From Methylophaga sp. (GTDB lineage Bacteria; Pseudomonadota; Gammaproteobacteria; Nitrosococcales; Methylophagaceae), in the NCBI GenBank assembly GCA_002733715.2, contig NVWQ02000053.1:62001-126000 (forward strand): a DNA stretch of 64,000 nucleotides, in the 5' to 3' direction. The notes beneath the pieces are model-generated. The model ran no database searches. It worked only from the letters and a program-made list of their open reading frames with translations, and had not been told where the DNA came from. Of this stretch, positions 43,980 through 58,494 are shown piece after piece. Every line of letters begins with the position of its first letter. Position 1 is the stretch's first letter. Both the position numbers and the translations under genes were made by a program.

Positions 43980-44141
43980 ATGGAGTGAACTTTGCTTTTT
44001 ACACCATCTCGACTGGGATTGTTTTATAAGTATTTTGCTATAACGCAGTGAACATTTTGAAAATATTGCCCCTAACTTTGGGTATAGGCAACGCGCCGTA
44101 TATATAGTAAGCTCAATATGTTTTATATTGGAGCAAGCGAA

Positions 44142-45914
44142 ATGATTTCACACTCTCGATTATTGTTATTAGTTGCTGTTTTTTCTTTAACAGCGAATGC
44201 AGCAGATACACTGAAAGAAAAACCATTATCGGGAGCAAACGCCAAGCCAAGTTTTAAGCTTCCAAATGCAAATACAACGAGCACATCAGGTGTTAAGCCA
44301 ATACTGAAAAGACCTGCACCTATTGGGCTTGCTCCAAAAGCAAAATTGCAAACCTCACCCAAGATCTCCTCACCACAAATTAAACCTGGTTTTAAAACGC
44401 CTACCACCTCAACTAGAATTAAACCCGGCTTCAAGGGCGATGCTGATATGGAAGGACGGCAGAACCCTGCGGGTGTGGGTGCTTTTGTGCCCACCCTTGA
44501 TTCAACAGGTTTAGGTCATAAAGGAACTGCTTCTCGCCCGAATCCGGGTAATGTATCACCAGGTTCAGGACCTAATAGCCAAGCAGGCTATACAGGAGCA
44601 GGCAGTGATGTCCAAGGAGCGATACCTGATCCAACCATATCAGGCGGAGTAAATGCAGGTGGAGCTAATAGAACAGGTGGCGTACCCGTGGTTGAATATG
44701 ATGGAAAAGTAGAATATGTGGGTACGGTACCAATTGTTGAGGGAAAAGCGAAAGCCGAACCAATACCGGGAGGTTCTGCTGCACAAAACCCATTTGTTGA
44801 TGATGCGCCTAGTACGGGTGGAAGTTCGACAGAAAACCCATTTATTGACGACGTTCCAACATCAGAAGCGCCGGGTTCTCGCGCACGGGTTACGAGTGTT
44901 GGTGGTGCAGTTACGAGTGGTGATAATGGCTTAAAACCGGGCGATAAAGATGGTGTAGGGGGATCTAATCCTTTTATCGATGATGTACCAACATCAGAAG
45001 CGCCTGGTTCTCGCGCACGAGTTACAAGTGTAGGTGGTGAGGCATATGAAGGTGAAAATGGTGTTAAGGAAGTTCCATCAGATGGTTTTAAAATTGGTGT
45101 GGAAGGTAGTAAATCTGGGTTCGGAAGCGGAGTACAACCCCATGTGACAAGTGTAGGTGGTGAGGTTGTTCAAACAGAAAGTTATGATAAGGCAGGGTTT
45201 GGAGGCGGGGTACAACCTCAAGTTACACGCGTTGGAGGAGCAGCCTACGATTCTGAAAGTGGACCAAAGCCAGAACGGTCTAATAGTGGTAATACAAATG
45301 GCTCTGAAGAATCAGCAGGAACAAAAAATAATACTGCAGGAACAAAGAATAATACGGCTGGAAGAAAAAATGAGGATGGCGGATCAGAGAGTGATTCTGA
45401 TGATGATTCAAGTAACGACGATTCCGATAGTGATAATGATAACTCAAGCAGTGATGATTCTGACACATCTTCTGAAAGTAGTGATGAATCAACCGAAACT
45501 GAAACAGATACTGGTGACGAGGCAGCTGATGAAAGCCAAACTGGACTAGATACGGGCAGTTATGGTGGTTATAGCAGTGAGGGTAAAGATGGCGTTGATT
45601 CCGCGGCACGAGTAGGGACAAACACAGTAGAAGAAACAGCTCCTGGCAACTGTGGTGATGGTAAAGGTGGCCAAGTAATGGATCAACAAGAGGCGGATAA
45701 TTGTTTGCCTGGTGGCATGCCGGGTCAAGGCGATGAAGATGATCCTAAACCACCAGGTGCCGATTCTATTTGGCAAGCACCGAGTTCATCTGGTGGCGTT
45801 GACACCGTTATTCAACCCGGTATTGATGATGAACAATTTAATGATGAAGGTATGGACCCTCTGGAAAATATTGGTCGCCAAATTGATTCAGTGACGAATC
45901 CGGGTGGAAATTGA
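44142..45914 (+). CDS. Exported low-complexity protein with repeats and Asp/Ser-rich region
   Basis: 590 residues from the ATG at 44142 (MISHSRLLLLVAVF), which has GGAG at the right distance; an earlier in-frame ATG exists at 44118. Signal peptide 1-20 (ending ANA). A Lys/Pro-rich repeat follows (PSFKLP, SPQIKPGFK, RIKPGFK), then tandem copies of a 40-residue unit containing 'PFIDDVPTSEAPGSRARVTSVGG' (about 44840 and 44970, with shorter VTSVGG/VTRVGG copies after). GTKNNTAG repeats (45318-45375) lead to an extremely acidic Asp/Ser stretch (about 45385-45540). Possible calcium binding or surface-matrix role (inference). First gene of the secreted-protein array. Confidence 0.7.
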   Translation: MISHSRLLLLVAVFSLTANAADTLKEKPLSGANAKPSFKLPNANTTSTSGVKPILKRPAPIGLAPKAKLQTSPKISSPQIKPGFKTPTTSTRIKPGFKGDADMEGRQNPAGVGAFVPTLDSTGLGHKGTASRPNPGNVSPGSGPNSQAGYTGAGSDVQGAIPDPTISGGVNAGGANRTGGVPVVEYDGKVEYVGTVPIVEGKAKAEPIPGGSAAQNPFVDDAPSTGGSSTENPFIDDVPTSEAPGSRARVTSVGGAVTSGDNGLKPGDKDGVGGSNPFIDDVPTSEAPGSRARVTSVGGEAYEGENGVKEVPSDGFKIGVEGSKSGFGSGVQPHVTSVGGEVVQTESYDKAGFGGGVQPQVTRVGGAAYDSESGPKPERSNSGNTNGSEESAGTKNNTAGTKNNTAGRKNEDGGSESDSDDDSSNDDSDSDNDNSSSDDSDTSSESSDESTETETDTGDEAADESQTGLDTGSYGGYSSEGKDGVDSAARVGTNTVEETAPGNCGDGKGGQVMDQQEADNCLPGGMPGQGDEDDPKPPGADSIWQAPSSSGGVDTVIQPGIDDEQFNDEGMDPLENIGRQIDSVTNPGGN

Positions 45915-46011: not shown

Positions 46012-46053
46012 TTGAACCTATTTTATCATTCCTCCGACTTACCTTTTAATGAC
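46012..46053 (+). promoter_or_regulatory. Array promoter P1 (putative ECF sigma)
   Basis: TTGAACC at 46012-46018, 18 bp, then ACTTAC (46037-46042), 6 bp, AATGAC, all at the same spacing as three other copies. The start codon lies 37 bp after the block. Confidence 0.78.
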
Positions 46054-46089
46054 ATCCTTTGTTGTTATTTATAATTTTAGGAGAATGAA

Positions 46090-47445
46090 ATGAAAGTTCA
46101 TAAATTAGCGCTATTAATCAGTGTGCTTGTTTTACCGACGCAGGAATTATTAGCAGGTAATGCTAGAGACCTAACACAAGGTAATAGCAGTAAAGCGGCA
46201 GTTGTTATGTCTGGCAATGCAGATAGTAAAACCAAAGCCGTCGTCCCAACAAGACAAGGTAATGTGGCGGCACCTACAAAGCAAGGTAATGTGAAAAATG
46301 GACGAACAACAGCACCGCCCCCAACGACTACTCAAAAACCAACATTGCCCACTAGAGTGTCAAAACCTGTTGTATCAGGAACGGTGGGAGGATTTATAAC
46401 GCCACAATCATCGGCAACAGTTTCAAGTGATATTGGCAACGCCAAAACTTCGGATAACTCAACTGTTGGACCAAAATTAGAAAGGTTTACAGAGGGGGAT
46501 ACACACCAGCATGGCGCTAATGGAGACCAATCAAATTCAGAGCACTCACTTTTTGACGAAGTTAAGGGTGAAGCGCAAGTGCATGAAAGTGTTGAAGTAC
46601 AACCAGTTTATAAAGAGCTTTCTCAGTTTAACGTAACATCAGATAGTGTGGTTGCAACTGCAACGGTTGTTGTCGATGAAGATCACCGTTCTCTTACTTT
46701 GGTCTGGGGAGATGGTACGTTTGAATATGTCACGCTTTCTGGTTTTAGAAGCACGATTACAGACAAAAACAGGACGAGTGACCCCGCAAAATTTAAATTC
46801 CAACATATTTATAAAGCACCGTTTGATCAAAGCAATAGAACGGTAAAAGTACTTGCGAAGGATGCAAATGGCAAGGGCGTATCAGCTTCATCTACAGAGG
46901 TTAATATAAATCCACGTTATACCTTTATTCTTTACCCTGTTCAACTAGAAATCAACGAGCATTTAGATTCTATTACCGAAACGCATTCTGAATTATATGT
47001 GTATATGAATATGATGCATAACAACCAACTCATAGTAGGAAAGGAGTGGAGAGAAAGTATTCAAACAGCACCTGGTGCGGGGGAGGGAATGCTATACCCT
47101 GTTCATTATTCATTGGGTAATGACAGTCGAGTACAATTAGAGATGAGTTACCAAGATGAGCCAATACAAGTTTATTTTAATATGAAAGAAGAGGATAATT
47201 GGGCAAAATCCGCCTGGGATGTGGTCACTAATATTCCAGCTAGTTTTGATGGATCCAACCAAATCACCCATATTCCAGGTCTTCATCCTAAAGATTTCAC
47301 TGGCAGTAAAGAAGTTAGAGCTATCCATCGTATTGATGACGATGGCACCGTTACTGCTGTGCTATCAGTGGAGTTGAATTTGATCGTACCTAGCACGAAT
47401 AGTGATGGAGAAAATGCACGGTTTAATAACGCTGTGGCTCGGTGA
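46090..47445 (+). CDS. Exported protein with PKD-like domain, array member
   Basis: 451 residues. Signal peptide 1-22 (MKVHKLALLISVLVLPTQ, cut after LLAG). Then the shared linker module with 'ARQGN'-like repeats (TRQGNVAAPTKQGNVKNG) and 'QKPTLPTR'. A PKD-like fold follows: 'VATATVVVDEDHRSLTLVWGDGTFEYV' (WGDG is a PKD hallmark), 'KFKFQHIYKAP' and 'VLAKDANGKGVSAS'. The last 150 residues are beta-rich with no known family. It is preceded by promoter P1 and GGAGAA. Likely surface or periplasmic, of unknown binding partner. Confidence 0.75.
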   Translation: MKVHKLALLISVLVLPTQELLAGNARDLTQGNSSKAAVVMSGNADSKTKAVVPTRQGNVAAPTKQGNVKNGRTTAPPPTTTQKPTLPTRVSKPVVSGTVGGFITPQSSATVSSDIGNAKTSDNSTVGPKLERFTEGDTHQHGANGDQSNSEHSLFDEVKGEAQVHESVEVQPVYKELSQFNVTSDSVVATATVVVDEDHRSLTLVWGDGTFEYVTLSGFRSTITDKNRTSDPAKFKFQHIYKAPFDQSNRTVKVLAKDANGKGVSASSTEVNINPRYTFILYPVQLEINEHLDSITETHSELYVYMNMMHNNQLIVGKEWRESIQTAPGAGEGMLYPVHYSLGNDSRVQLEMSYQDEPIQVYFNMKEEDNWAKSAWDVVTNIPASFDGSNQITHIPGLHPKDFTGSKEVRAIHRIDDDGTVTAVLSVELNLIVPSTNSDGENARFNNAVAR

Positions 47446-47526
47446 GCTGAACCCTAGATCTAGGGGTTGCATGATAAGGTTAACTGGGTATAGTCATTTT
47501 AATAATAGCAAAGATAAGGTGAACAA

Positions 47527-48294
47527 ATGAATAACAAGATAATAGCTATTGCATCGCTAACAAAAAAGTTAAAAATCAGTGGAAAATGGATGCTCTTTTG
47601 TTGCAGTTTAATGCAAATGAACGTTGCTATGGCCGCTTCAACAGTAAAAGGCCCTACGCCACCAGAAGGGTTATATACAATCCAACAACAGAGTACAGGG
47701 CGTTATATGAATGCCTACACAACGAAAAATAAAGACTTTTCGGCTTTTACAGACACCTTGAAAATTGCTAATGAGCAAATGTGGTATCTCAAATATATAA
47801 GTAAAAATACCTACACTATTAGGCAACAAGGTGGCACACAATATTTAGATGCACACACTGATGCTGGCCATGATTTTAATGTGGTTACTCGGCCACACCA
47901 AAAGAATAACTCACAAAAGTGGATCATCAAAAAAATAGGCAATGATTTATATACCATTCAGCAAAAAAGTAATATGCAGTATTTAGATGCACATGATGCG
48001 GGCGGTGCTTTCTCAGTGGTGACACGGCCTGCACAGAATAACAATTCACAACGTTGGATCATCAAGCGAACGTCTAAGGTGCCCGTAAAAGTGACTATTG
48101 ACCTGAATTTGTATTGTAAAAAGAATTTCGGCTCAAAATCTAAAGCGGTGCTTAATGGAAAAACAGCACTGGATTGGGTCTGCCAAACCAATGAAGGGAT
48201 CAATGCGAGAAAAGCCTGCCAACAACAGCATGGTACTAAACAGACAGGGTATACTGAGAAAAGTAATCCCTACTCATGGTATTGCGTTAAATAA
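47527..48294 (+). CDS. Exported ricin-type beta-trefoil protein, array member
   Basis: 255 residues. The N-terminus has a longer basic start (about 1-20) before the hydrophobic signal segment (21-37, ending AMAA). Three repeats 'YTIQQQSTGRYMNAY', 'YTIRQQGGTQYLDAH' and 'YTIQQKSNMQYLDAH', each ending in a QxW-like 'QMWYLK'/'QKWIIK'/'QRWIIK', form a ricin B-type trefoil that usually binds carbohydrate. A separate C-terminal Cys-containing segment ('CKKNFG' then 'LDWVC') follows. Its upstream region lacks the array promoter, so it may be transcribed with the PKD gene 81 bp before. Confidence 0.8.
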   Translation: MNNKIIAIASLTKKLKISGKWMLFCCSLMQMNVAMAASTVKGPTPPEGLYTIQQQSTGRYMNAYTTKNKDFSAFTDTLKIANEQMWYLKYISKNTYTIRQQGGTQYLDAHTDAGHDFNVVTRPHQKNNSQKWIIKKIGNDLYTIQQKSNMQYLDAHDAGGAFSVVTRPAQNNNSQRWIIKRTSKVPVKVTIDLNLYCKKNFGSKSKAVLNGKTALDWVCQTNEGINARKACQQQHGTKQTGYTEKSNPYSWYCVK

Positions 48295-48311
48295 TAAGGG
48301 GATAATTTAAA

Positions 48312-48353
48312 TTGAACCGTTTAGGTGGATGATACGACTTACTTAATAATGAC
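48312..48353 (+). promoter_or_regulatory. Array promoter P2 (putative ECF sigma)
   Basis: TTGAACC at 48312-48318, 18 bp, ACTTAC (48337-48342), 6 bp, AATGAC. Spacing identical to P1. It lies upstream of the Cys-rich gene at 48396. Confidence 0.78.
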
Positions 48354-48395
48354 CCTATGTTGTTATTATTCTAATAAAATTTCTGGAGAGATAAA

Positions 48396-48860
48396 ATGTT
48401 TAAAAAAATAGTGAATATAATGTTTATAATTTTTGCACTGAGCCTAACTGGCATAGCATATGCGGTACCGGTGTCAGATAGCAATGCGGCAGATTTATTA
48501 AGCAATTGCTTATTGGAAGGGGATAACAAAACGGCTTCGGCAAATGGTGGCAAGGATGCTGCTTGTTGCTCTAAATCACTAGGATACTGTGTTATATGTC
48601 GTCAGGGACAGACTTGTACAAAAGTCTCTTATCGCCTATCACCACTCAATGGAGAGAACACGTTGACTAGGCCGGGTAATGCCGTAATAGCCCCAGCACC
48701 TAAACCGCCTTCATTACGAGATCAAGTGAAGCCTGCACAGAGTGCGACAACAGCTCCAGCAAAAATAGTAAACCCAGAAAAGGCACCTACAGTGAAACCT
48801 ATCAAACAATATCAGCAAATCAAAGCCCCAGCATCGGCTGATAAAGCCATGAGTAAATAA
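48396..48860 (+). CDS. Exported Cys-rich array protein 1
   Basis: 154 residues. Signal peptide 1-23 (ending YAVP). A Cys-rich head ('AACCSKSLGYCVICRQGQTC') is followed by a Pro/Lys linker with 'KPPSLRDQVKP' and the tail 'TVKPIKQYQQIKA'. A paralogue with the same plan is at 51939, and a divergent one at 51251. No known family. The cysteines in pairs suggest disulfides or metal binding in the periplasm or outside. It is driven by promoter P2 and followed by its own strong terminator. Confidence 0.72.
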   Translation: MFKKIVNIMFIIFALSLTGIAYAVPVSDSNAADLLSNCLLEGDNKTASANGGKDAACCSKSLGYCVICRQGQTCTKVSYRLSPLNGENTLTRPGNAVIAPAPKPPSLRDQVKPAQSATTAPAKIVNPEKAPTVKPIKQYQQIKAPASADKAMSK

Positions 48861-48883
48861 GCAATCGGGAGTCAGATTGTATT

Positions 48884-48929
48884 AAGCCATTATTCCCATC
48901 TTATAGTTGAGGGAATGATGGCTTTTTAT
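48884..48929 (+). terminator. Intrinsic terminator
   Basis: AAGCCATTATTCCC pairing perfectly with GGGAATGATGGCTT across a 13-base loop, then a T-rich tail. It lies 24 bp after the Cys-rich gene stop. Confidence 0.88.
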
Positions 48930-48958
48930 TGCAAGTAATAAACAAATGAGAATATATT

Positions 48959-49000
48959 TTGAACCTAATTAAATGTTCACCGGACTTACTTTTGAATGAC
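48959..49000 (+). promoter_or_regulatory. Array promoter P3 (putative ECF sigma)
   Basis: TTGAACC at 48959-48965, 18 bp, ACTTAC, 6 bp, AATGAC. Identical spacing to P1, and the start codon again lies 37 bp after the block. Confidence 0.78.
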
Positions 49001-49036
49001 AATTATGACAATTAAATTAGCTTTTAGGAGAATACA

Positions 49037-49672
49037 ATGAAAATTCATAAAATAGTACTATTAGCCGGTCTTTCTATATTACCAATGCAAGGGTTGTTAG
49101 CCGCTGGTGCGAATAATGAGCGTTTGGTTCAACCTATTACAAGTAAAGCTACGATAGTGATGCCTGAGCAAAAATTAAGCCCAGTAGCACCTGGTAAAAA
49201 ACAAGGTGGAGAAATTGCTGGCCCTGGCGGAGCAGCAACGGGCCACACAAAGCCAGTAGTTGTGCAAAGAGACAGTGCTATAGCAAAAATGGGGGTGAAT
49301 TTAAAATTACTTTCAGTAAAGTGGGATGATGAAATTTGTACGCAAGGTTGCCCTGACTTTCGTTCGCTAGGCCTTAGCCTCGGTTACGCCTCATGTGATT
49401 TAGCATTTCGAGTTACGAATACGGGTGATGTAGCTTCTGGTAACTTTAGAGTCCGCTTGCTTAGGACGATACATACGGGAACTGAAGTTCCCCTTGATAT
49501 ATCTAATGGCCTGTACAAGTTAGCCCCACATGAAACAAAGACGTTCACAATAGATCGAGTCTCGCTGGGGCTTTATACGCTAGGGCGTCCATTCACTGTG
49601 ACGCTTGACCCTATAAATCAGATCGCTGAAACCAATGAAAATGATAATTCAGCTACCTTTTTACCACAGTAA
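49037..49672 (+). CDS. Exported CARDB-domain array protein 1
   Basis: 211 residues. Signal peptide 1-22 (MKIHKIVLLAGLSILPMQ, ending LLAAG). A short linker without the full QGNV module precedes a CARDB domain from about 85: 'LKLLSVKWDDEICTQGCPDFRSLGL', 'CDLAFRVTNTGDVASGNFRVRLL', 'LAPHETKTFTI' and the hallmark end 'IAETNENDNSATF'. CARDB folds serve adhesion or binding in surface proteins. Driven by promoter P3. It is the first of three CARDB genes in tandem. Confidence 0.78.
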   Translation: MKIHKIVLLAGLSILPMQGLLAAGANNERLVQPITSKATIVMPEQKLSPVAPGKKQGGEIAGPGGAATGHTKPVVVQRDSAIAKMGVNLKLLSVKWDDEICTQGCPDFRSLGLSLGYASCDLAFRVTNTGDVASGNFRVRLLRTIHTGTEVPLDISNGLYKLAPHETKTFTIDRVSLGLYTLGRPFTVTLDPINQIAETNENDNSATFLPQ

Positions 49673-49759
49673 TAGCTACGTAAATTTTGCCTATTATAAA
49701 GGTTAAATATAGGTAGAGCAGCTGTAAAATCAATAGTTATAAATTATTAGGAAAATAAA

Positions 49760-50398
49760 ATGAAAATTCAAAAGGTATTATTTTTAGCAAGTGTTTTTAT
49801 ACTGCCGACACAAGCATTATTTGCAGAAAATGCTAGATTAGCACAACCGGCTGCAAGTAAATCAACTGTAGCCGTACCCGCTAAGACAACTAGTAAACTT
49901 AAAATGGTTGCACCTATTAGGCAGGGTAATGTAGCTGCTGACCCAGTCGCAACTTCGGGGCCAGCTACAGTTCAAAAGCCAACATTGTCTAGCAGAGATG
50001 CAAAAATAGCTAAACCTGCTGGCCCCGGCCCTAATTTAGTTGTTTCAGTGTCATATGAGCATGATGTTTGTGCGATACATCCCAGTCCGCTTGGTGGTGA
50101 TCTTTTTAATGCTGGATGTGATGTGATAGTTAAAATCAAAAATCAAGGCGGATCAACTACTTCTGAAGCGAACACCATTCAAGTTAATATGTCTTACAGC
50201 GATAGAACGGGGACAGCAAAACTTCTTAGATTCATACCCGCCTTAAAAGCTAATGAAGAGAAAACGATTATTATTCGGAGTGGTTTAATTCACTCATTTA
50301 AAAAGGCTTCGTCATTCACAGCTGTTGTTGATCGGCCTCAGGATGTAACAGAAACCAATGAGAATGATAATACAGCAGTATTTTGGCTGGGGCTGTAA
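49760..50398 (+). CDS. Exported CARDB-domain array protein 2
   Basis: 212 residues. Leader 1-22 (MKIQKVLFLASVFILPTQ, ending FAE), then the shared linker 'PIRQGNVAADP' and 'QKPTLSSR', then CARDB: 'NLVVSVSYEHDVC', 'GCDVIVKIKNQGGSTTSEANTIQV' and 'VTETNENDNTAVF'. It has no array promoter of its own, so it is likely read through from P3. It is closest to the next gene in linker and domain. Confidence 0.78.
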   Translation: MKIQKVLFLASVFILPTQALFAENARLAQPAASKSTVAVPAKTTSKLKMVAPIRQGNVAADPVATSGPATVQKPTLSSRDAKIAKPAGPGPNLVVSVSYEHDVCAIHPSPLGGDLFNAGCDVIVKIKNQGGSTTSEANTIQVNMSYSDRTGTAKLLRFIPALKANEEKTIIIRSGLIHSFKKASSFTAVVDRPQDVTETNENDNTAVFWLGL

Positions 50399-50456
50399 AT
50401 TCAAGAGTTTATGATTAGGAGCCGCTTATGCGCCTTATTTTTTCGGAAAGAATAAA

Positions 50457-50512
50457 ATGAAATTTAAAAAGTACTCTTGTTAGCGAGTATTTTTATATTG
50501 CCATCAAATCAG
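50457..50512 (+). pseudogene. Frameshifted leader fossil of an array protein
   Basis: ATGAAATTTAAAAAGT then CTCTTGTTAGCGAGTATT and TTTATATTGCCATC. With one base restored it reads MKFKK.LLLASIFILPS, the array leader. As it stands, a stop occurs after about eight codons. No body of a gene follows; it lies directly before the third CARDB gene. Confidence 0.75.
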
Positions 50513-50528
50513 CGTAAAGGAATAAATA

Positions 50529-51170
50529 ATGAAACTACATAACTTTATAGTGCTAACAGTTGTTTTACTATTGTCGACACAAGAGTTATTGGCAGGAAAC
50601 GCTAGAGACTTGGCGCAACCTAGTGCTATTAAATCAACAATAACGGTACCTACTAGCACGACTAGTAAGATGACAGTAATTGCTCCTATTAGACAAGGTA
50701 ATGTATCTGCTGGGCTAGTCGCTACACCGGGCCGTACGACAGTTCAAAAACCAACATTGCCGAGCCGGCAGGTGATAGCTAGGCCACGTGGAGCGGGGCC
50801 TAATTTGATTGTTTCGGTGAAGTATGAACGTGATGTGTGCCCTGCAGATGAAAGCCGTCTTCGCAAAAATACTTTTAATGCTAGGTGTGATTTGATAGTC
50901 ACGGTTAAAAATGTAGGCGATGTTCCTACTGACTCTGAAAACGGATCAATTAGTATTAGTCTAATGTATTACAATTATAGGAACAGTCTCCAAAGAGAGG
51001 TTCTTCACATTAATAACTTAGGAATAAACCAAAAAAGAGTCATAGTTTACGACAGATTTAACCTAAGAGACTTCAGGAGAACAGCGACAATTACCGTTTT
51101 TGTTGATACGGAAAAACTCATAACAGAAACAAACGAAAATGATAATCGGGCAGTGTTCGACCTTATGTAA
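50529..51170 (+). CDS. Exported CARDB-domain array protein 3
   Basis: 213 residues. Leader 1-22 (MKLHNFIVLTVVLLLSTQ, then ELLAGNARDL identical to the PKD protein's junction), linker 'PIRQGNVSAGLVA' and 'QKPTLPSR', and CARDB: 'NLIVSVKYERDVC', 'RCDLIVTVKNVGDVP', 'LITETNENDNRAVF'. The shared pieces with the PKD and second CARDB gene show module shuffling. No array promoter upstream; the ribosome site AAAGGAAT is near the start. Confidence 0.78.
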   Translation: MKLHNFIVLTVVLLLSTQELLAGNARDLAQPSAIKSTITVPTSTTSKMTVIAPIRQGNVSAGLVATPGRTTVQKPTLPSRQVIARPRGAGPNLIVSVKYERDVCPADESRLRKNTFNARCDLIVTVKNVGDVPTDSENGSISISLMYYNYRNSLQREVLHINNLGINQKRVIVYDRFNLRDFRRTATITVFVDTEKLITETNENDNRAVFDLM

Positions 51171-51250
51171 TAAAACCATAACGGCCAAAGGGCTAATTAT
51201 GCTATTAGCTCGTATTTTTTACTAAATTAAGCATTTATGAGGAATGTAAA

Positions 51251-51775
51251 ATGATGGAATCAATACACCAATTAGTTATAACAAAATTACTCAGGCCGTT
51301 TACCTTAATGGCTGTACTGATTACATTTTGTATCATGGCTCAAGTAGTCATGGCTGAATCAAGGGGAAGCGGCTCATCGATGGTGCCCGACCCTTGCGCT
51401 TATTATGCTTGTGGTACATGTGATGATCAGACTACCATGTTTTGTAGTGACAAACCGGCGTGTGCTTCTAGCAAATGTTCTGATGTAATTGACCGCCGCG
51501 GGTGGCCAGTTCCTGCCAATGGATCGGTAGGAATTTCCCCTACACCGGATGCATCCACATTACGTAACCATGTTAAGCAACCCCAAAATACAACATCTAC
51601 ACCCGAAAAATCTGTGAGTCCTAAGATAAAACCGACAAAACAACATCAGAAAATAAAATCGAGTCCATCTACAGCCTTGCAAGAAAATATGCAGCCGTCA
51701 GTTGGGACAACAAGACATTTTGATGAAGCAGATGCAATCTTTGGTAAGCGAACGGATGTACCTAAATCTCAATAA
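51251..51775 (+). CDS. Exported Cys-rich array protein 2 (divergent)
   Basis: 174 residues, with a longer N-region before the hydrophobic segment (about 20-35). Mature part: 'DPCAYYACGTCDDQTTMFCSDKPACASSKCSDV' with eight Cys, then a Pro/Lys linker 'DASTLRNHVKQPQN' and the tail 'KPTKQHQKIKS', which parallels KPIKQYQQIKA of the other two Cys-rich proteins. The final 30 residues are unique. A putative terminator hairpin lies upstream (51193-51222), so this gene may have its own unseen promoter. Confidence 0.7.
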   Translation: MMESIHQLVITKLLRPFTLMAVLITFCIMAQVVMAESRGSGSSMVPDPCAYYACGTCDDQTTMFCSDKPACASSKCSDVIDRRGWPVPANGSVGISPTPDASTLRNHVKQPQNTTSTPEKSVSPKIKPTKQHQKIKSSPSTALQENMQPSVGTTRHFDEADAIFGKRTDVPKSQ

Positions 51776-51857
51776 TGCAAGCACATGGAGTGGTTAAAAA
51801 ATGTTTGCCTATTTTAGAACTATATCGTTAATATCACTGGAATAGTTTTCAGAAATA

Positions 51858-51899
51858 TTGAACCTTTTGATAGGTTGCCCCTACTTACCTTTTAATGAT
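51858..51899 (+). promoter_or_regulatory. Array promoter P4 (putative ECF sigma)
   Basis: TTGAACC at 51858-51864, 18 bp, ACTTAC, 6 bp, AATGAT. Same geometry as P1-P3. It lies upstream of the third Cys-rich gene. Confidence 0.76.
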
Positions 51900-51938: not shown

Positions 51939-52409
51939 ATGTTTAAAAATATCTTATATACAGCTGTTATACTTTTTGCAGTGGGGTTAGCGGGTGTGGC
52001 ACAATCAGCACCACTTTCAAGAGAAGCAACAGAGTTTAATGCCTGCACGAGTAGTGCGGATCAAGAAGTAACAATATCTGCAGATGGATCATCATCTAGT
52101 TGCTGTTCTAAATCATTAGGTTATTGTATGTCTTGTGGCCACATTGCATGTGTAAAAACTGATTACCCTACATCTGGAACCGTGCTAGATAAGTTTCGAC
52201 CAAAAAGTGCAATAACAAGACCAGATAGCGCAGTAATAGCCCCAACGCCTAAGCCACCTTCACTGCGTGAACAAATTAAGTCTCAACCTACAATGCCTAC
52301 ATCTACAAAAGCGATGGATAGTGATAATACATCTACAGTGAAACCTATTAAACAATATCAGCAAATCAAAGCTAACCCAACTACAACTGATAAAGCACTC
52401 AGAAAATAA
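51939..52409 (+). CDS. Exported Cys-rich array protein 3
   Basis: 156 residues from the ATG at 51939, which has GGAGAAAT before it; an earlier in-frame start (51858) would sit upstream of the promoter's transcript start. Signal peptide 1-24 (ending AQSAP). 'SSCCSKSLGYCMSCGHIAC', 'AVIAPTPKPPSLREQIK' and 'STVKPIKQYQQIKA' run in parallel with the protein at 48396, so these are true paralogues. No known family. Driven by promoter P4 and ended by a terminator. Confidence 0.72.
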   Translation: MFKNILYTAVILFAVGLAGVAQSAPLSREATEFNACTSSADQEVTISADGSSSSCCSKSLGYCMSCGHIACVKTDYPTSGTVLDKFRPKSAITRPDSAVIAPTPKPPSLREQIKSQPTMPTSTKAMDSDNTSTVKPIKQYQQIKANPTTTDKALRK

Positions 52410-52480: not shown

Positions 52481-52545
52481 ATGAAAGTTCATAAACCACT
52501 ACTATTAATTAGTATTTCTGTATTACCAGCATTATTCGCACACTG
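52481..52545 (+). pseudogene. Truncated array leader fused to the subtilisin 3' end
   Basis: It begins ATGAAAGTTCATAAACC and translates MKVHKPLLLISISVLPALFA, the array signal peptide (compare MKVHKLALLISVLVLPTQ). After the leader the sequence turns into the antisense of the subtilisin gene's last codons; the subtilisin stop lies within the leader's last codons at 52532. This looks like a deletion junction, leaving only the leader. Confidence 0.8.
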
Positions 52546-54166
52546 TTTCTGGTGCACGAACAAGCCCCCAACCAAATATTGGATCATGGCCAGCACTACC
52601 AAGGTCGTTACTATTTTCTTTCATGGCACCGTAAAGCAAGTTTGGAGATATTGCCGGATTTTTCCTAAGGTAAAAAGCGGCAATTGCCAGAGCATGTGGG
52701 CTAGCATAGGATGTGCCTGAGCTATATTTTCCTTGATTATGTTTGTTTGCGATCCAGATATCTACACCAGGTGCTGCGAAGTCTATATAAGCCCCTTGAT
52801 TAGCCTGTCGATAAATGTGTTTTGCCGCATCAACTGCGGTGATAGCGATAACGCCTGGTAGCGCGGCGGGGTAAGATTTAGGTGCTGTTCCCCCCCCATT
52901 ACCTGCAGCAGAGAAGATAATTATTCTCTTTTGTATGGCTATAGCAAATGCTTTTTTGAAGACCGAATTATTTTTGCTGCCAGAGAGTGAGATGTTAACT
53001 AACCTAACATTATTTATCATTAGCCAATTTAGCGCTTTGACAATACCTTCTGTTGTTGCCAGTAGCGTATCTTTTTCTTGCCGTAATGTAGCTGCTGCAA
53101 ACATGTTTACATGAGGTAATAATCCTGTAGCTCCCATGTCTGGCTGATTGCCAACGAGGATGGTGGCTACAGCAGTACCATGCTCCATATCTGCTTGGTG
53201 CGATTCTTTTAGGAAACTCTTTATGGTAATGTTTTCATTTAATAATGCAGGATGAGTTAAGTCGGGTGTTCCATCAATTATGCCAATTGCTATAGAGTCG
53301 TAGCTTATTTTATTGCATGATGGTGGCCATAAGATCATTCTCGGAGCATAAATACGAGGTTTAGTGGCAGATTGTTGATAATGGTTATTGACATCAATAT
53401 TGGCATTCGGGAATTTTTTACGCAATGCAATAATTTGAGAGTGTAGATTATTCTCAGTTGTTTTCAATGTTAGTATCGTTTTCCCAAGTGCCTTAAGAAC
53501 ATCACTTTCGAGAAGCTGTAAGCCCATTTTATTAAGCTCTTGCTTTATTGCCGCTGCCTCTAACTGATCAGTAAGGACTAATATTTCACCAATTTCATGA
53601 TTAATCTCAGCTTCATTTCCACTGTTTAATAGGCATACATTTATTGTTAGTTCTGTTGATGAATGACGTGTTAGATTTGCTTTATTTATCAGAAGTATCT
53701 TATATGATTGTTCGCTTTCTAATTTAGGGTGTTCTGGAACCTGAACAATAAGCTGATTTTCAGTTATATGTAGAGGCGTTAGTGCTACTTCATCGTTATG
53801 AATACGGATAGCAAATTTATAGTGTGATAATTGAGATAAATTTTCACCATTAAATTTAACAATATCACCGGGGCGGATACATCGTTGAGGTGAGTTGGTA
53901 AAGCTAAAGTTAGATGTTTCCTCATCCTTAATAGTGGGTTTCTCTTGTTCTGGAAAACCACTAGTGGGTGGAGGGACATTATCTGTCGGTGCAGAAGGTG
54001 TAGGAGCTGTTCCAGAACTTATAGATGATTGAGATGGCGTATAGTAATAAGGGGTGGAATAGGGGGCTGCCGGCCCAGGTGATACGTCGTCAGAAAATAC
54101 GGGTAGGCAGTAACAGGCGGATAGTAAAAAGAAGAACATACCGAGGCTGTTTGGATAAACAGACAT
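52532..54166 (-). CDS. Exported subtilisin-like serine protease (S8)
   Basis: 544 residues. Signal peptide (about 1-24), then a Pro/Ser/Thr-rich stretch and a beta domain ('PGDIVKFNGENLSQLSHYKF' resembles an IPT/TIG-like fold) to about 180. A propeptide-like region 'ILVLTDQLEAAAIKQELNKMGLQLLE' follows, then the catalytic domain: Asp in 'IGIIDGTPDLTHPAL', His in 'MEHGTAVATILVG', Ser in 'SSGTSYASPHALAIAAF'. The triad looks complete. It is the last gene of the ECF-anti-sigma operon, 2 bp after the anti-sigma gene. Its extreme 3' end runs into an array leader fossil. Confidence 0.92.
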   Translation of the reverse strand: MSVYPNSLGMFFFLLSACYCLPVFSDDVSPGPAAPYSTPYYYTPSQSSISSGTAPTPSAPTDNVPPPTSGFPEQEKPTIKDEETSNFSFTNSPQRCIRPGDIVKFNGENLSQLSHYKFAIRIHNDEVALTPLHITENQLIVQVPEHPKLESEQSYKILLINKANLTRHSSTELTINVCLLNSGNEAEINHEIGEILVLTDQLEAAAIKQELNKMGLQLLESDVLKALGKTILTLKTTENNLHSQIIALRKKFPNANIDVNNHYQQSATKPRIYAPRMILWPPSCNKISYDSIAIGIIDGTPDLTHPALLNENITIKSFLKESHQADMEHGTAVATILVGNQPDMGATGLLPHVNMFAAATLRQEKDTLLATTEGIVKALNWLMINNVRLVNISLSGSKNNSVFKKAFAIAIQKRIIIFSAAGNGGGTAPKSYPAALPGVIAITAVDAAKHIYRQANQGAYIDFAAPGVDIWIANKHNQGKYSSGTSYASPHALAIAAFYLRKNPAISPNLLYGAMKENSNDLGSAGHDPIFGWGLVRAPETVCE

Positions 54167-54168
54167 GA

Positions 54169-54774
54169 TTATTCTTCTTGAATAGATTCGATTAGGTCTG
54201 CTTGGGATGCAAGTTTTTCAATTGTAGTATCGCTGCCATCAACGATGACTAAGCGATAAATACCTAAAGCAGACGGTCCATCGACAATAAATACATTGGT
54301 TTCAAGGAATAGATTTCGAATTTGTTGTTCAGTAGCCGCTGGAGAAAAAGTCACGCTTACAATCTTTCCTTTATACTGGGTAACTGCTGTACCACCTGCC
54401 GCTTGGTATGTGTTACCTGTTTCAATATTGTTTACCGTTTGTACGACTAACATTAAGCAAGCTGCCATAGCCGCAAATTGCCAGCGGTTTTTAGTTGAAG
54501 AAAGTATTTTTTGCTGCTGACTATTATTATCTATCGTTTGCTGCTCTTTTAACCTTCTTTGTAAACGTTTAAGGCCAAATTCCCCTGGTGAGTTTTGTTG
54601 TTTTTGTTGTTGAACCTGTATTTGTAGTTTCTGAAGAAAAACCAACTCTTGTTGCAAGTTTTCATTTTCAGCTAAAGTGCGTTCAACCCGCTTAATTTCA
54701 TCCTCAGTTAAACTCCCATTTACATAATAGGGTAATAGAGATTCTATCTCTTGTTCAGTGTTTATATTTGTCAT
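54169..54774 (-). CDS. Membrane anti-sigma factor
   Basis: 201 residues. Cytoplasmic N-domain 'LLPYYVNGSLTEDEIKRVERTLAEN' is the anti-sigma helix bundle start, without the Cys/His zinc motif. A Gln-rich linker precedes one membrane segment (about 98-114, 'RWQFAAMAACLMLVVQTV'). The periplasmic C-domain has 'VSVTFSPAATEQQIRNLFLETNVFIVDGPSALGIYRLVI', which has the I9/subtilisin-propeptide-like pattern found in anti-sigma factors beside S8 proteases. It overlaps the sigma stop by 4 bp. It would hold the ECF sigma at the membrane until proteolysis. Confidence 0.88.
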   Translation of the reverse strand: MTNINTEQEIESLLPYYVNGSLTEDEIKRVERTLAENENLQQELVFLQKLQIQVQQQKQQNSPGEFGLKRLQRRLKEQQTIDNNSQQQKILSSTKNRWQFAAMAACLMLVVQTVNNIETGNTYQAAGGTAVTQYKGKIVSVTFSPAATEQQIRNLFLETNVFIVDGPSALGIYRLVIVDGSDTTIEKLASQADLIESIQEE

Positions 54775-55331
54775 GGCGCACTGTACTCCATACGTTTAGT
54801 CAAGCAGCGTTTCATCGCTTGTTTGGCATGGAACATTCTAGTTTTAACTGTGTTTTCAGGGCAATCGACAATGTTTGAAATCTCTCTGTAAGATAATTCA
54901 TTGAAAAATGTTAACTCCATGACAGTTCGATGAGCTGCTTTCAATGCATCAAGACAAAATCGTACATCACCCGCATTTTCATTACTGATCATACAAGTTA
55001 GTTGATTAGGGCTATCATCTTCTATCTCGAGAAAACGATCATCATCAACTGTTTCAGGTATTTTTTTTCTTAGTCTGTCCATCGTTTTATAATATGCAAT
55101 CCCAAATAGCCAAGTCGAAACTTTAGATCGTCCCTCAAAAGTATTGGCTTTTCGCCATACATCTAGGAACACTTCATTAAGTATGTCGGATGCTTCAAAA
55201 GAATCGTTCAATTTAGATGTAATAAATCGATATAAACGAGATTCGTACATGCGGTAGAGATCCGCAAAGGCGAGCTCATCACCCGTTGAGACCTTTTGTA
55301 GAAGTTCAACAGAAACCAGATCTTCACTCAT
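54771..55331 (-). CDS. ECF-type RNA polymerase sigma factor
   Basis: 186 residues. Region 2: 'ELAFADLYRMYESRLYRFITSKLNDSFEASDILNEVFLDVWRKANTFEGRSKVSTWLFGIAYYKTMDRLRKK', region 4: 'LTFFNELSYREISNIVDCPENTVKTRMFHAKQAMKRCL' with the typical helix-turn-helix. Short linker between, no regions 1 or 3, so ECF. It is co-transcribed with its anti-sigma factor (ATGA overlap) and preceded by the FN3 gene by 12 bp. I infer that it recognises the four TTGAACC promoters of the adjacent array; no copy of that motif was found before its own operon. Confidence 0.93.
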   Translation of the reverse strand: MSEDLVSVELLQKVSTGDELAFADLYRMYESRLYRFITSKLNDSFEASDILNEVFLDVWRKANTFEGRSKVSTWLFGIAYYKTMDRLRKKIPETVDDDRFLEIEDDSPNQLTCMISNENAGDVRFCLDALKAAHRTVMELTFFNELSYREISNIVDCPENTVKTRMFHAKQAMKRCLTKRMEYSAP

Positions 55332-55343
55332 CAGTGTTGAAAC

Positions 55344-56510
55344 CTAGGGTACGGACAATGTTCGAGGTTTAGATTCACCTATAACTTGACCGGTGTAATT
55401 AAACGCACGGACTTTCCAGTGGTAGTTGTAGCCTGATAGTAGTTGATTAAGCGAAAAGGAAGACAATGAAAGGTTAGTACTTGATGCGGGTACTAATTTT
55501 CCTGATATGGCAACACTGTCATCTTTATTAAATACTTCGACTTGATAGGCTGTCGCACCTTCAAGCTGTGGCCAAGAAAAGAGCGTTTCCTCAGTTATAG
55601 GTGCATTATCTCCTGGCGATATAATGTTAATTTCTGTTATATGTGCTAAGGGCGGAATACCATTTTTATCTAACACAAAATATCGTATTACCGGCGTATC
55701 CAATGCGAAATCAGATTCTTGAATAAAAAAGGTCAGTAAGTATAAGCCGTTTTCATTCGAGGGAAGAGGAGGGCTTATAATGCGTGTTCTGCCTTGTCCT
55801 GAGCTACGTAGATTTTTCCGGACTACTTGAAGTACTCGCCCACCTTTTGAACCAAGGCTTGCAGTGGGATCGACAAGTCGCCACTCGCCTTTGAGAATGC
55901 CGCTACTGCGAAATGAAATATCTACAAAGGCTCGGATATGTTCATCTTTATATACGACATCGGTGCGAGCTTGATTTTCAAATGCGAGTTCGATTCTTCG
56001 TATTGCTAATGGGCCGGAATTTCCATTACCAGCAAATAGCTGAGCAAAGCCAAAAGTACCTTTTTGGGTGTCATCGAAATATCTGCGTATTTGTACGCTA
56101 CCTGCGGGGCTTTCTGCTATACGGCGAGCTAGAGCCGCATTAATCGTTATTCTATCACTGATGTTAACGGTGCCTGTTGTACCTACGGGTAAGGATGAAG
56201 GTTTAGTTATTAAGCCTGCTACTGTCGCTACCGCTACCCCATTTATTTCTAATGTGGCAGATGATGAAGATACTATTACCGGAGGATTAGGTAGTGGGTT
56301 TTCCAAGCGAGTAATACGCCAGTTTATGGTAAAGCTTGCTGTCCCTGCTGCAGGTATGCTGGTCGGGTTTGCCGAAATTGATTGTACATCAGCGTATGTG
56401 GGGTTAAAAAATACACATGCGAGCAGAAAGAATGAGATTACATGCTTAGCGACGGGTAGCGACCGCTGCTGTAATTCTGAAAATAGCGAAAATTTGATAA
56501 CTGGTTTCAT
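55344..56510 (-). CDS. Exported protein with C-terminal FN3-like domain
   Basis: About 388 residues from the ATG at 56510 (MKPVIKFSLF), preceded by GGAG; a longer reading exists to 56612 but adds no signal and lengthens the overlap with the upstream gene. The signal peptide lies about residues 20-40 (ending TYAD). Mature part: beta-rich, 'SANPTSIPAAGTASFTINWRIT', with no family recognised until a C-terminal FN3-like domain: 'LFSWPQLEGATAYQVEVFNKD' and 'LLSGYNYHWKVRAFNYTG'. It overlaps the beta-barrel gene by 65 bp. Possibly a surface or secreted partner of the barrel. Confidence 0.7.
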   Translation of the reverse strand: MKPVIKFSLFSELQQRSLPVAKHVISFFLLACVFFNPTYADVQSISANPTSIPAAGTASFTINWRITRLENPLPNPPVIVSSSSATLEINGVAVATVAGLITKPSSLPVGTTGTVNISDRITINAALARRIAESPAGSVQIRRYFDDTQKGTFGFAQLFAGNGNSGPLAIRRIELAFENQARTDVVYKDEHIRAFVDISFRSSGILKGEWRLVDPTASLGSKGGRVLQVVRKNLRSSGQGRTRIISPPLPSNENGLYLLTFFIQESDFALDTPVIRYFVLDKNGIPPLAHITEINIISPGDNAPITEETLFSWPQLEGATAYQVEVFNKDDSVAISGKLVPASSTNLSLSSFSLNQLLSGYNYHWKVRAFNYTGQVIGESKPRTLSVP

Positions 56511-58494
56511 CTTTAATTGTTTCTCCATTAGTGCTTGCCAGTGAACCCCTGATAGCCAAGGAGTAACCTGGACTATTTGTTGTTGCAGGCTTAATTGTCC
56601 AGCCAAGTTCACTATTTATAGTATGTATATCTAATGAGTCTGTGTTTCCACTACTTTGGTTCAAATTATAATTTAGGTTAAGATTGAGTTTGTTTTTAAT
56701 AAGAGGTGACGTCACACCAATATTTAAGTTTCTAGTATAGTCAGTCGTGCGGTTATCTTTATCTTGAACGACAATATATTGTAATGAACTATTGATAAAG
56801 GTGGCATCTAGAACTCTCCAATTTAGAGATATATCAGATGTATTGAAAACGGCATCACTAAAATTATTGGCATAGTCGTTAAAGAGAGAATAATCATGGC
56901 GTGCGGACCAGTAAAACCGTTCATAATTTGACCCCAGATCAACAACAAATGATTTGGACATTTCATCGGTATCAAAGCCGGTGTATCCGGTAGGTGTTTT
57001 TTGGCGTTCAAAATCAGAAATGAAGCCTGAAAAACCGATGTAAGGGGAGCCTAGCCACGAGCGAGATCCTGTTTGTGTTGAAAAAGAATAACTTGAATTC
57101 CAAATGAAGTTTCGTAATTTATCGGTAGGTATATTTTTCAAATCATCTACATTATTTGTTTCATGACTTAACTCTAGCCTAGTGTATAAGCCTCCCCAGT
57201 ATAAATCACTATAAAGATTGACAGTATCATGATTGGCGGGAAGACCAGGGTTGGCTAAACTTTGAAAGAACGTGTCAATGCGTTCATATTTGGCCCCCAA
57301 AACGATGTCTATGCCTTTATCAAATAATGTGGAGTTATCAAAAGGACGCGCTGTAATCGACAATGATACAGCATCACTGTCATCTTCAGGCGCTAAGCCT
57401 GAACTTCCATCAATATCATAGCGTGATTGAGCATATTGTCCCTGAAGGTTTATTTTACCATCGGCTAGTTTTTTTTCTAGAACTACTCCCCAGCCTGAGC
57501 CTGTAGATACTTCGTCGGCATTGCTTGCCCCTATGCCGTTGGCCGATCTTTCGCCATCATAATACATCCCCGTTATTTTTAGCGCATTAGCATCAGTGGA
57601 AAAGGGTTTAAGTGACACTGATGCGCCTTCGAGCCTATTATTGCTGTCAGATAAGCCAGTGAAGTGATTGCTTCCCACCTGTGATACAGGATTAAACGAG
57701 AATATATTTCCTGCTATTTGTTGGTTCTTAGATGTTACTTGTGCAGAGATCCCTCTTCGGTTAAACGATGAGATTAACATTGAGTTCAAACCTAGATCGT
57801 GGTGGCCTAGCGTGACGGTGGTATTGAGTGCTTCACCTGCATAATTAGCCGCAACACGATATTCGCCTATATCGGCTCTTTTCCCCGATAAAGACAAGCC
57901 TTTTTCACTTTGAAGAAAATAGTTACTGTACATGTCGATAGAAAGCTTTTCACCTTGAAGATTGCCTTGAAGATTACCACTACCAGATAGAATAGTGTGA
58001 TCTGGTGGAGAGTTTCCTAGGTTTCTACTTGCGGCACGATTGCTAAATTCTGTGAGAGTATCGGCCTTAAATGATGATGATTTTAACCAAGATTCAGCAG
58101 CAGAGATTTTATCCTCTTCCTGTGAAGAAGCGTTCTTCGTTGTAACCATTTCTGGTGTAACGTCAAAAGGCCATTGTTTTTTTTCATAACTACTACCGTC
58201 AGCCTGTAGGACGAGTAAACGAAGTAAGTGGGGGCCAACTGATAGCGCTTCGACAGGCATGAATGATAATTGCTGATCTTCAAGGGTAAGCAATGCAGTC
58301 ACATCAATTCCATCTAGCTCCACGGCCAATGTTGTTAATGTTGAGCTATCAATATCATTAGGTAACAAAATCGATAAAATGGCTTTATCATGAGAAGGTG
58401 GGTTAAAGTCAGCCGACCAATCAGCTGAAGCTATACCTGCTGATAATATCAATAACAATGTTGCGCTGAGATGGAGGGTGAAATTAAATTTCAT
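56446..58494 (-). CDS. Outer-membrane beta-barrel-like protein with N-terminal periplasmic domain
   Basis: 682 residues. Signal peptide 1-24 (ending ASAD). Residues 25-115 are a small beta domain ('LAVELDGIDVTALLTLEDQQLSFMPVEALSVGPHLLRL' in pieces). From about 160 on the protein has alternating short strands rich in Tyr, Ser, Asn and Gly, e.g. 'LSIDMYSNYFLQSEKGLSLSG', 'NLQGQYAQSRYDI', 'LYTRLELSHETNN', 'WSARHDYSLFNDY'. It fits a large beta-barrel. The final strand ends 'YQIFAIFRITAAVATRR' and lacks the C-terminal aromatic of classic porins. First gene of the ECF operon. The substrate or cargo is unknown. Confidence 0.72.
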   Translation of the reverse strand: MKFNFTLHLSATLLLILSAGIASADWSADFNPPSHDKAILSILLPNDIDSSTLTTLAVELDGIDVTALLTLEDQQLSFMPVEALSVGPHLLRLLVLQADGSSYEKKQWPFDVTPEMVTTKNASSQEEDKISAAESWLKSSSFKADTLTEFSNRAASRNLGNSPPDHTILSGSGNLQGNLQGEKLSIDMYSNYFLQSEKGLSLSGKRADIGEYRVAANYAGEALNTTVTLGHHDLGLNSMLISSFNRRGISAQVTSKNQQIAGNIFSFNPVSQVGSNHFTGLSDSNNRLEGASVSLKPFSTDANALKITGMYYDGERSANGIGASNADEVSTGSGWGVVLEKKLADGKINLQGQYAQSRYDIDGSSGLAPEDDSDAVSLSITARPFDNSTLFDKGIDIVLGAKYERIDTFFQSLANPGLPANHDTVNLYSDLYWGGLYTRLELSHETNNVDDLKNIPTDKLRNFIWNSSYSFSTQTGSRSWLGSPYIGFSGFISDFERQKTPTGYTGFDTDEMSKSFVVDLGSNYERFYWSARHDYSLFNDYANNFSDAVFNTSDISLNWRVLDATFINSSLQYIVVQDKDNRTTDYTRNLNIGVTSPLIKNKLNLNLNYNLNQSSGNTDSLDIHTINSELGWTIKPATTNSPGYSLAIRGSLASTNGETIKDETSYQIFAIFRITAAVATRR

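Follow-up and report, generated by a model that had tools for sequence, protein, structure and literature searches.

In the stretch of Methylophaga sp. DNA analysed here (64,000 nucleotides from contig NVWQ02000053.1, hereafter the window), four units of an array of exported-protein genes are each preceded by the same promoter-like element. These four elements are very probably promoters of an extracytoplasmic function (ECF) sigma factor encoded in the window at 54771-55331, which would also raise its own level and be held by an anti-sigma factor. RNA polymerase carrying this sigma factor would read a -35 box TTGAACC and a -10 box CGAC(T), 16 bp apart, and start the exported-protein units of the array. 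The sigma factor would boost its own level from a further copy of the promoter, which lies within the last part of the upstream gene, one for a predicted outer-membrane beta-barrel protein. A membrane anti-sigma factor encoded next door would hold the sigma factor, and release would probably follow an envelope event in which the operon's subtilase and the anti-sigma factor's propeptide-like outer domain take part.

Geometry of the element in the exported-protein array

The initial annotation described the element as TTGAACC, 18 bp, ACTTAC, 6 bp and AATGAY; its boxes and first gap are as described, and the last gap measures 5 bp. The window holds four exact copies of TTGAACC-N18-ACTTAC-N5-AATGAY; shuffled sequence would give 0.02 matches even when up to three mismatches are allowed. 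The version with a 6-bp gap gave no match in the window at up to three mismatches, and in the whole genome only four matches with three mismatches, none of them in the array. Across the whole 2,828,178-base genome the perfect matches to the N5 element are the four array sites only; three more matches carry three mismatches each, and the reversed control yielded one. The other particulars of the annotation held as well: the element ends 37-43 bp before the ATG codons, the 18-bp stretch varies (mean pairwise identity 0.44), and an ECF gene lies some 2.9 kb past the final site. That gene is on the strand opposite to the array. Mean pairwise identity is 0.37 over the 50 bp upstream of the four sites and 0.35 over the 20 bases after AATGAY.

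The paralogues within the array, which BLAST puts into one cluster of four and one of three genes, the decayed leader copies seen by eye at 50457 and 52481 and the presence of AATGAY in the four array sites alone would also suit leftovers of a recent tandem duplication of array genes with their leaders rather than a selected promoter. Such an origin is extremely improbable, however, as the boxes are fully conserved while spacers and leaders are identical only to the extent given above, and unrelated genes in other bacterial classes are preceded by these boxes with this spacing. The earlier reading of promoter-like conservation is borne out for the two promoter boxes, for which duplication is refuted; AATGAY may yet be such a leftover.

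TTGAACC is present at all five sites of the window, the fifth being the copy inside the barrel gene, and contains the AAC that is a -35 hallmark of group IV ECF sigma factors. The -10 CGT, another early hallmark, is absent from them: sites 1-4 and the internal site read CGAC, CGAC, GGAC, CTAC and AGAC. According to PMC8103513, CGT was dropped as a requirement in later classifications.

The element accompanies the ECF sigma gene at one spacing

A search for the ECF protein covered 59 genomes including the window's own; the genus set among them comprises 29 genomes, likewise with the window's own (G000). Among the 28 other genus genomes, a close ortholog is encoded only in G013 (87%) and G016 (60%). 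More distant orthologs were found in G042 and G054 (42-44%), and an ECF sigma factor at about 30-35% identity is present in most of the genus. TTGAACC-N16-CGACTYAM, with matches read by eye, occurs two, three and three times in G000, G013 and G016, in every case at the ECF locus, and was not found in the other 26 genus genomes, which are those without a close ortholog; G010 has one CG match at another spacing. The looser pattern TTGAACC-N{14,22}-ACTYAM gives scattered matches in all 29 genomes, as chance predicts. Beside the sigma operon of G013 and G016, several exported-protein genes carry TTGAACC-N18-ACTYAM. The version with AATGAY was found once at up to two mismatches in the 58 relatives, in G011, a genome without a close ortholog.

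For a wider comparison the best 80 of 551 loci with ECF relatives were kept (38-88% identity), from Methylophaga, Kiloniella, Micavibrio, Pelagibius, Nitrincola, Microbulbifer, Pseudomonas and others; 28 of 369 genomes drawn from the class encode a relative with an E-value of 1e-35 or lower. Spacing was counted in 84 stretches around ECF relatives (1.35 Mb; L096 and L110 excluded as duplicates). TGAAC-N17-CGACT gave 65 matches, 26 at close, 22 at intermediate and 17 at far loci, and each of the 19 other spacings between 8 and 27 gave 0-5. A CGAC or CGACT site is present in 29 of 31 close, 15 of 19 intermediate and 18 of 33 far stretches. The profile of 63 distinct sites reads TTGAACC-N16-CGACT-N-A with little conserved elsewhere, TGAAC and CGACT having been preset by the search. 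Across 24 ECF-carrying genomes, TTGAACC-N16-CGACT matched 57 times against 18 in the reversed control.

Because one spacing so dominates the 84 stretches, we take the core promoter to be TTGAACC-N16-CGAC(T), with AATGAY local to the array and outside the general promoter; a 16-bp spacer is typical of ECF promoters. Of the boxes proposed earlier, TTGAACC stands as the -35, and ACTTAC overlaps the -10 CGAC(T). The attribution to an ECF sigma factor, also made in the initial annotation, is strongly supported by the way the element tracks the ECF gene between genomes at one fixed spacing, and by its placement upstream of ECF genes in many relatives and elsewhere mostly before exported-protein genes.

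Co-occurrence does not amount to direct recognition, and the sites might instead be read by another sigma factor, for example the genome's second ECF (G000:C75, at 33% identity) or sigma70 helped by an activator with TTGAACC and ACTTAC as its binding sites. ECF proteins of 30-35% identity are widespread in the genus, and two weak minus-strand matches of sigma70 type overlap sites 1 and 3 (46049-46020 and 48979-48951). Nevertheless, no site occurs at 25 short loci (87 kb in total) of other, different ECFs, the 26 genus genomes without a close ECF ortholog are also without the motif, and the region has 11 plus-strand matches of sigma70 type versus 19.6 in shuffles, none of which uses the conserved boxes. 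An AAC-containing -35 with a -10 starting in CG is moreover the ECF pattern (PMC8103513). We therefore consider another reader very unlikely and infer direct recognition by the ECF sigma factor of the window.

Several observations weigh against this assignment. Only two of the five window sites have an exact CGAC, sites 3 and 4 and the internal site deviating from it, and the genome search at two mismatches gave 13 matches against 18 in the reversed control. No site was found in the stretch from G042 (L047), in 15 of the 33 far relatives or in 4 of the 19 intermediate ones. The excess of 57 matches over 18 is only moderate, with 14 of the 57 coming from Pelagibius litoralis, and 6 of the 24 ECF-carrying genomes are without a perfect match. 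Some loci are near-identical (Kiloniella, L111/L113), so that the counts, including the barrel codon counts given below, are inflated; several genus genomes are incomplete.

A genome-wide regulon was rejected for the window's genome. The 13 two-mismatch matches comprise the four array sites, the internal site, one match inside the ECF gene and seven others; of these seven, the five that were read (L238, L241, L242, L246 and L247, as opposed to L070 and L243) include none convincingly placed as a promoter before an exported-protein gene. As judged from the sequence, what can be recognised of the regulon in this genome is small and confined to the locus, consisting of four units and the internal site. 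In Pelagibius litoralis, five perfect promoter matches lie within 17 kb (G420, contig C64:159611-176403), a cluster that may be an expanded target array.

A proposed autoregulatory site inside the barrel gene

The barrel gene ends about 190-220 bp after the internal site. This site reads TTGAACC-N18-ACTCAT in the window, and the homologous site has ACTCAC in G013 and ACTTAC in G016. Across 19 close barrel genes, some of them near-copies, the codons for Asn 612 and Asp 619 are AAC and GAC, respectively, without exception (19/19 each), while other conserved columns have C-ended codons in at most 10 of 17 genes for Asn and 10 of 18 for Asp. The neighbouring Asn 610 is AAT in 19/19 (none C-ended), and Asp 622 is GAC in 1/19. 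The simplest reading is that the internal site is a promoter constraining synonymous positions. Because its Asn and Asp codons are frozen while other conserved Asn and Asp codons vary, we propose that the sigma factor positively autoregulates from this site.

The same stretch encodes a peptide, YNLN...GDSPD, that is conserved in close relatives, and many far relatives keep neither peptide nor motif at this place, so that the site might merely be conserved protein sequence and no promoter. That is unlikely, however, given that codon choice is fixed exactly at the two residues within the motif and C-ended in none and one of the 19 genes at Asn 610 and Asp 622, and that the distance from the end of CGACT to the start of the gene for the FN3/Ig-like protein is 105 or 108 nt in the close loci listed with the internal site. 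The proposed autoregulatory promoter is placed differently in other relatives: in about 12 alphaproteobacterial loci a site stands directly before the start of the ECF gene itself, and several gammaproteobacterial relatives have it in front of the gene for the anti-sigma factor or that for the barrel.

The sigma module and its possible release

In the ECF protein, Pfam matches Sigma70_r2 at residues 25-90 and r4_2 at 123-173, both above cut-off; it consists of sigma2 and sigma4 only, with a linker of under 50 residues. The anti-sigma gene overlaps the sigma gene by 4 bp, and its orthologs adjoin sigma genes in relatives. Four of five anti-sigma members match zf-HC2 at E up to 1 (best 4.6e-7; weak, at 0.23, in the window member). 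Being co-encoded, this protein is the predicted cognate anti-sigma factor of the ECF. The genes for the barrel, the FN3/Ig-like protein, the ECF, the anti-sigma factor and the subtilase occur together in 34 of 41 loci (L096-L136), and the other seven are without one or two of them, several lying at contig ends. The AlphaFold model of the barrel is many-stranded and confident (pLDDT 86.8), and its similarity to usher pores and TonB receptors is at barrel level only (TM-scores of about 0.2-0.45).

The model of the anti-sigma factor (pLDDT 80.6, pTM 0.39) shows a helical part at the N-terminus, then a hydrophobic helix and, at the C-terminus, an alpha/beta domain. In one VIA row the N-terminal part is matched by RslA bound to sigL (Z 6.8, root-mean-square deviation 4.6). 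For the C-terminal domain, the ten top VIA rows hold seven subtilase propeptides or pro-forms, 4jp8 among them, and two of the inhibitor POIA1, together at Z 7.2-7.7, as well as an unrelated tenth (Z 7.4), fold families outside the VIA listing not being thereby excluded. The best Foldseek E for this domain is 0.025, and Pfam lists no I9 match for the C-terminus. Two points count against the likeness: a propeptide-like fold is a common alpha/beta arrangement, with Z here below 8, and a similarity between the domain and the subtilase's own N-terminal region was not accepted, with a non-significant hhalign probability of 4%. In propeptides the C-terminal end sits in the protease active site, and the end of this domain is the C-terminus of the protein. 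Because the subtilase is encoded next door and the domain is propeptide-like, we infer from the models that the operon's subtilase may recognise it, which makes the pair a plausible proteolytic trigger.

In a tree of 64 ECF proteins, some rows of which are metagenome bins, the sigma factor of the window, that of NORP65 (G013) and L097 fall together with sequences from Kiloniella and Micavibrio (support 100/98, 15 rows), apart from the sigma factors of Methylophaga OBS4, BWSM_61 and G016. Transfer of the sigma module between classes of Proteobacteria is likely on this phylogeny. As read from translations, the sigma operon lies between nuoN and fusA in G013 and G016 (L043/L044 and L045/L046), unlike in the window.

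Targets and their turnover

Thirty sites were picked by hand before clear genes outside the inner genes of the sigma operon. By a crude signal-peptide rule, the product is exported for 28 of these 30 genes, against 215 of 572 background open reading frames (ORFs) from the window and the 41 loci; the two that fail the rule represent a single gene, present in two genomes of Kiloniella. BLAST sorts the 28 exported targets and four additional genes of the array into 13 clusters, including a nine-member cluster that spans both classes, with G013 among its members, and a five-member cluster that is the barrel gene itself. The array's eight proteins form two clusters (four and three genes) and a singleton, and have no partner elsewhere in the compared set. 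With 13 target clusters and the window's proteins without partners, the promoter therefore remains constant as the genes that follow it change. Members of the largest target cluster are exported proteins of about 410-465 amino acids found in both classes, four of which (Table 1) have no Pfam match above cut-off.

An unannotated array of secreted proteins thus becomes a candidate regulon with a named regulator. The promoter code would apply to an ECF lineage that spans at least two proteobacterial classes and could serve as a sequence tag for targets in other genomes. A constant promoter with changing target families, a promoter within coding sequence and a pairing of subtilase with a propeptide-like anti-sigma factor are all open to experimental test.

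Relation to known systems

The system is of an ordinary kind, an ECF regulon, well resolved and with unusual parts. With the canonical pairing of ECF and membrane anti-sigma factor of RpoE-RseA type, as presented in PMC8103513, it shares a sigma factor of sigma2 and sigma4 only, an adjacent anti-sigma gene, an AAC-type -35, a -10 starting in CG and the proposed autoregulation; the -10 is CGAC here and CGT there. The present operon adds the barrel, the FN3/Ig-like protein and the subtilase, its targets are mostly uncharacterised exported proteins, and the promoter proposed for autoregulation falls, in close relatives, within the protein-coding part of the gene upstream. Promoters of the EcfG general stress response of Alphaproteobacteria have AAC in the -35 and CGTT in the -10 (PMC8103513); the -35 core and the CG start are similar, whereas the -10 here is CGAC(T) and the regulon small and local.

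Cell-surface signalling of the FecI/FecR/TonB-dependent transducer kind likewise has barrel, anti-sigma factor and ECF sigma factor encoded together, but the present barrel resembles TonB receptors at barrel level only, the operon includes a subtilase and the promoter is another. EcfG, for its part, works through NepR/PhyR logic, in place of which an ECF-anti-sigma operon is found here. In the ECF54 group, as described in PMC8999054, subtilase, carboxypeptidase and CHAT proteins occur in the context with no anti-sigma factor; a subtilase encoded with the ECF sigma factor is common to both, and here an anti-sigma gene adjoins the sigma gene.

Within the open-licence literature, whose partial coverage is no proof of absence, we found no paper on a TTGAACC/CGAC promoter with an ECF, and none fitting on subtilase/S8 or propeptide with anti-sigma factor, on ECF classification or on Methylophaga with ECF. 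The 2021 ECF classification may well contain the ECF group and motif of this window. More tentatively, and less probably than not, the locus could be a new ECF module in which an outer propeptide mimic on the anti-sigma factor is bound or cleaved by the operon's subtilase to free the sigma factor, with a promoter inside barrel coding sequence, and which has been transferred between Alpha- and Gammaproteobacteria, with one invariant promoter controlling a fast-exchanged set of exported proteins.

Genes of the array and surrounding features

The features of the window are collected in Table 1, in which transcription starts and operon limits are predicted.

Table 1 Features of the window and members of the largest target cluster (positions of the latter refer to the loci named)
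Feature	Position	Strand	Remark
ECF-type promoter 1: TTGAACC-N16-CGACTTAC-N5-AATGAC	46012..46053	+	
Unit 1, gene 1: exported 451-aa protein	46090..47445	+	
Unit 1, gene 2 (predicted member): ricin-B-lectin-like protein	47527..48294	+	export by eye; missed by crude signal-peptide rule
ECF-type promoter 2: TTGAACC-N16-CGACTTAC-N5-AATGAC	48312..48353	+	
Unit 2: exported Cys-containing 154-aa protein	48396..48860	+	
ECF-type promoter 3: TTGAACC-N16-GGACTTAC-N5-AATGAC	48959..49000	+	first -10 base unlike CGAC
Unit 3, gene 1: exported CARDB protein	49037..49672	+	above Pfam cut-off
Unit 3, gene 2 (predicted member): exported CARDB protein	49760..50398	+	above Pfam cut-off
Unit 3, gene 3 (predicted member): exported CARDB-like protein	50529..51170	+	below Pfam cut-off
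Unit 3, gene 4 (predicted member): exported Cys-containing 174-aa protein	51251..51775	+	
ECF-type promoter 4: TTGAACC-N16-CTACTTAC-N5-AATGAT	51858..51899	+	second -10 base unlike CGAC
Unit 4: exported Cys-containing 156-aa protein	51939..52409	+	
S8 subtilase	52532..54166	-	Pfam PF00082, E 6.6e-29; Asp, His and Ser motifs by eye in translation
Anti-sigma factor: helical N-terminus, hydrophobic helix (presumably membrane-spanning), subtilisin-propeptide-like C-terminal fold	54169..54774	-	
ECF sigma factor (regions 2 and 4)	54771..55331	-	
FN3/Ig-like exported protein	55344..56528	-	ATG 56528 by homology; longest ORF from 56612; Pfam fn3 and Ig below cut-offs
Predicted outer-membrane beta-barrel protein with N-terminal domain	56446..58494	-	holds internal promoter
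Internal, proposed autoregulatory promoter: TTGAACC-N16-AGACTCAT	56634..56664	-	inside barrel gene end, upstream of FN3-ECF-anti-sigma-subtilase
Largest-cluster member in L044	1352-2746	-	
Largest-cluster member in L098	5331-6671		
Largest-cluster member in L115	5248-6630		
Largest-cluster member in L133	13232-14464		

Remnants of array-gene starts lie on the plus strand at 50457-50483 and from 52481, each with an ATG and signal-peptide-like codons, after which the frame is stopped or lost; this suggests duplication and decay within the array. Ahead of the array, 44118-45914 (+) encodes a 598-aa low-complexity protein, exported as judged by eye. Over 132 aa it matches, at 43%, a sequence that precedes the barrel gene in L110 (at 6406), and its gene was possibly once part of the sigma locus. 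In the DNA upstream of this gene, TGAAC and CGACT are by eye two bases too far apart, and the pair was not counted as a site.

A conserved 5'-leader hairpin starting at AATGAY was considered and rejected as a general feature: it is clear in two of the four window leaders, has other letters in Micavibrio-like loci and is weak, different or absent at others. Target leaders of the Micavibrio-like loci (L098 5232, L099 3993 and 5444, L100 395, L108 2121) carry an inverted repeat AACAGC...GCTG after the promoter, and in the window leaders from 46048 and 48348 a different hairpin is possible at a similar place.

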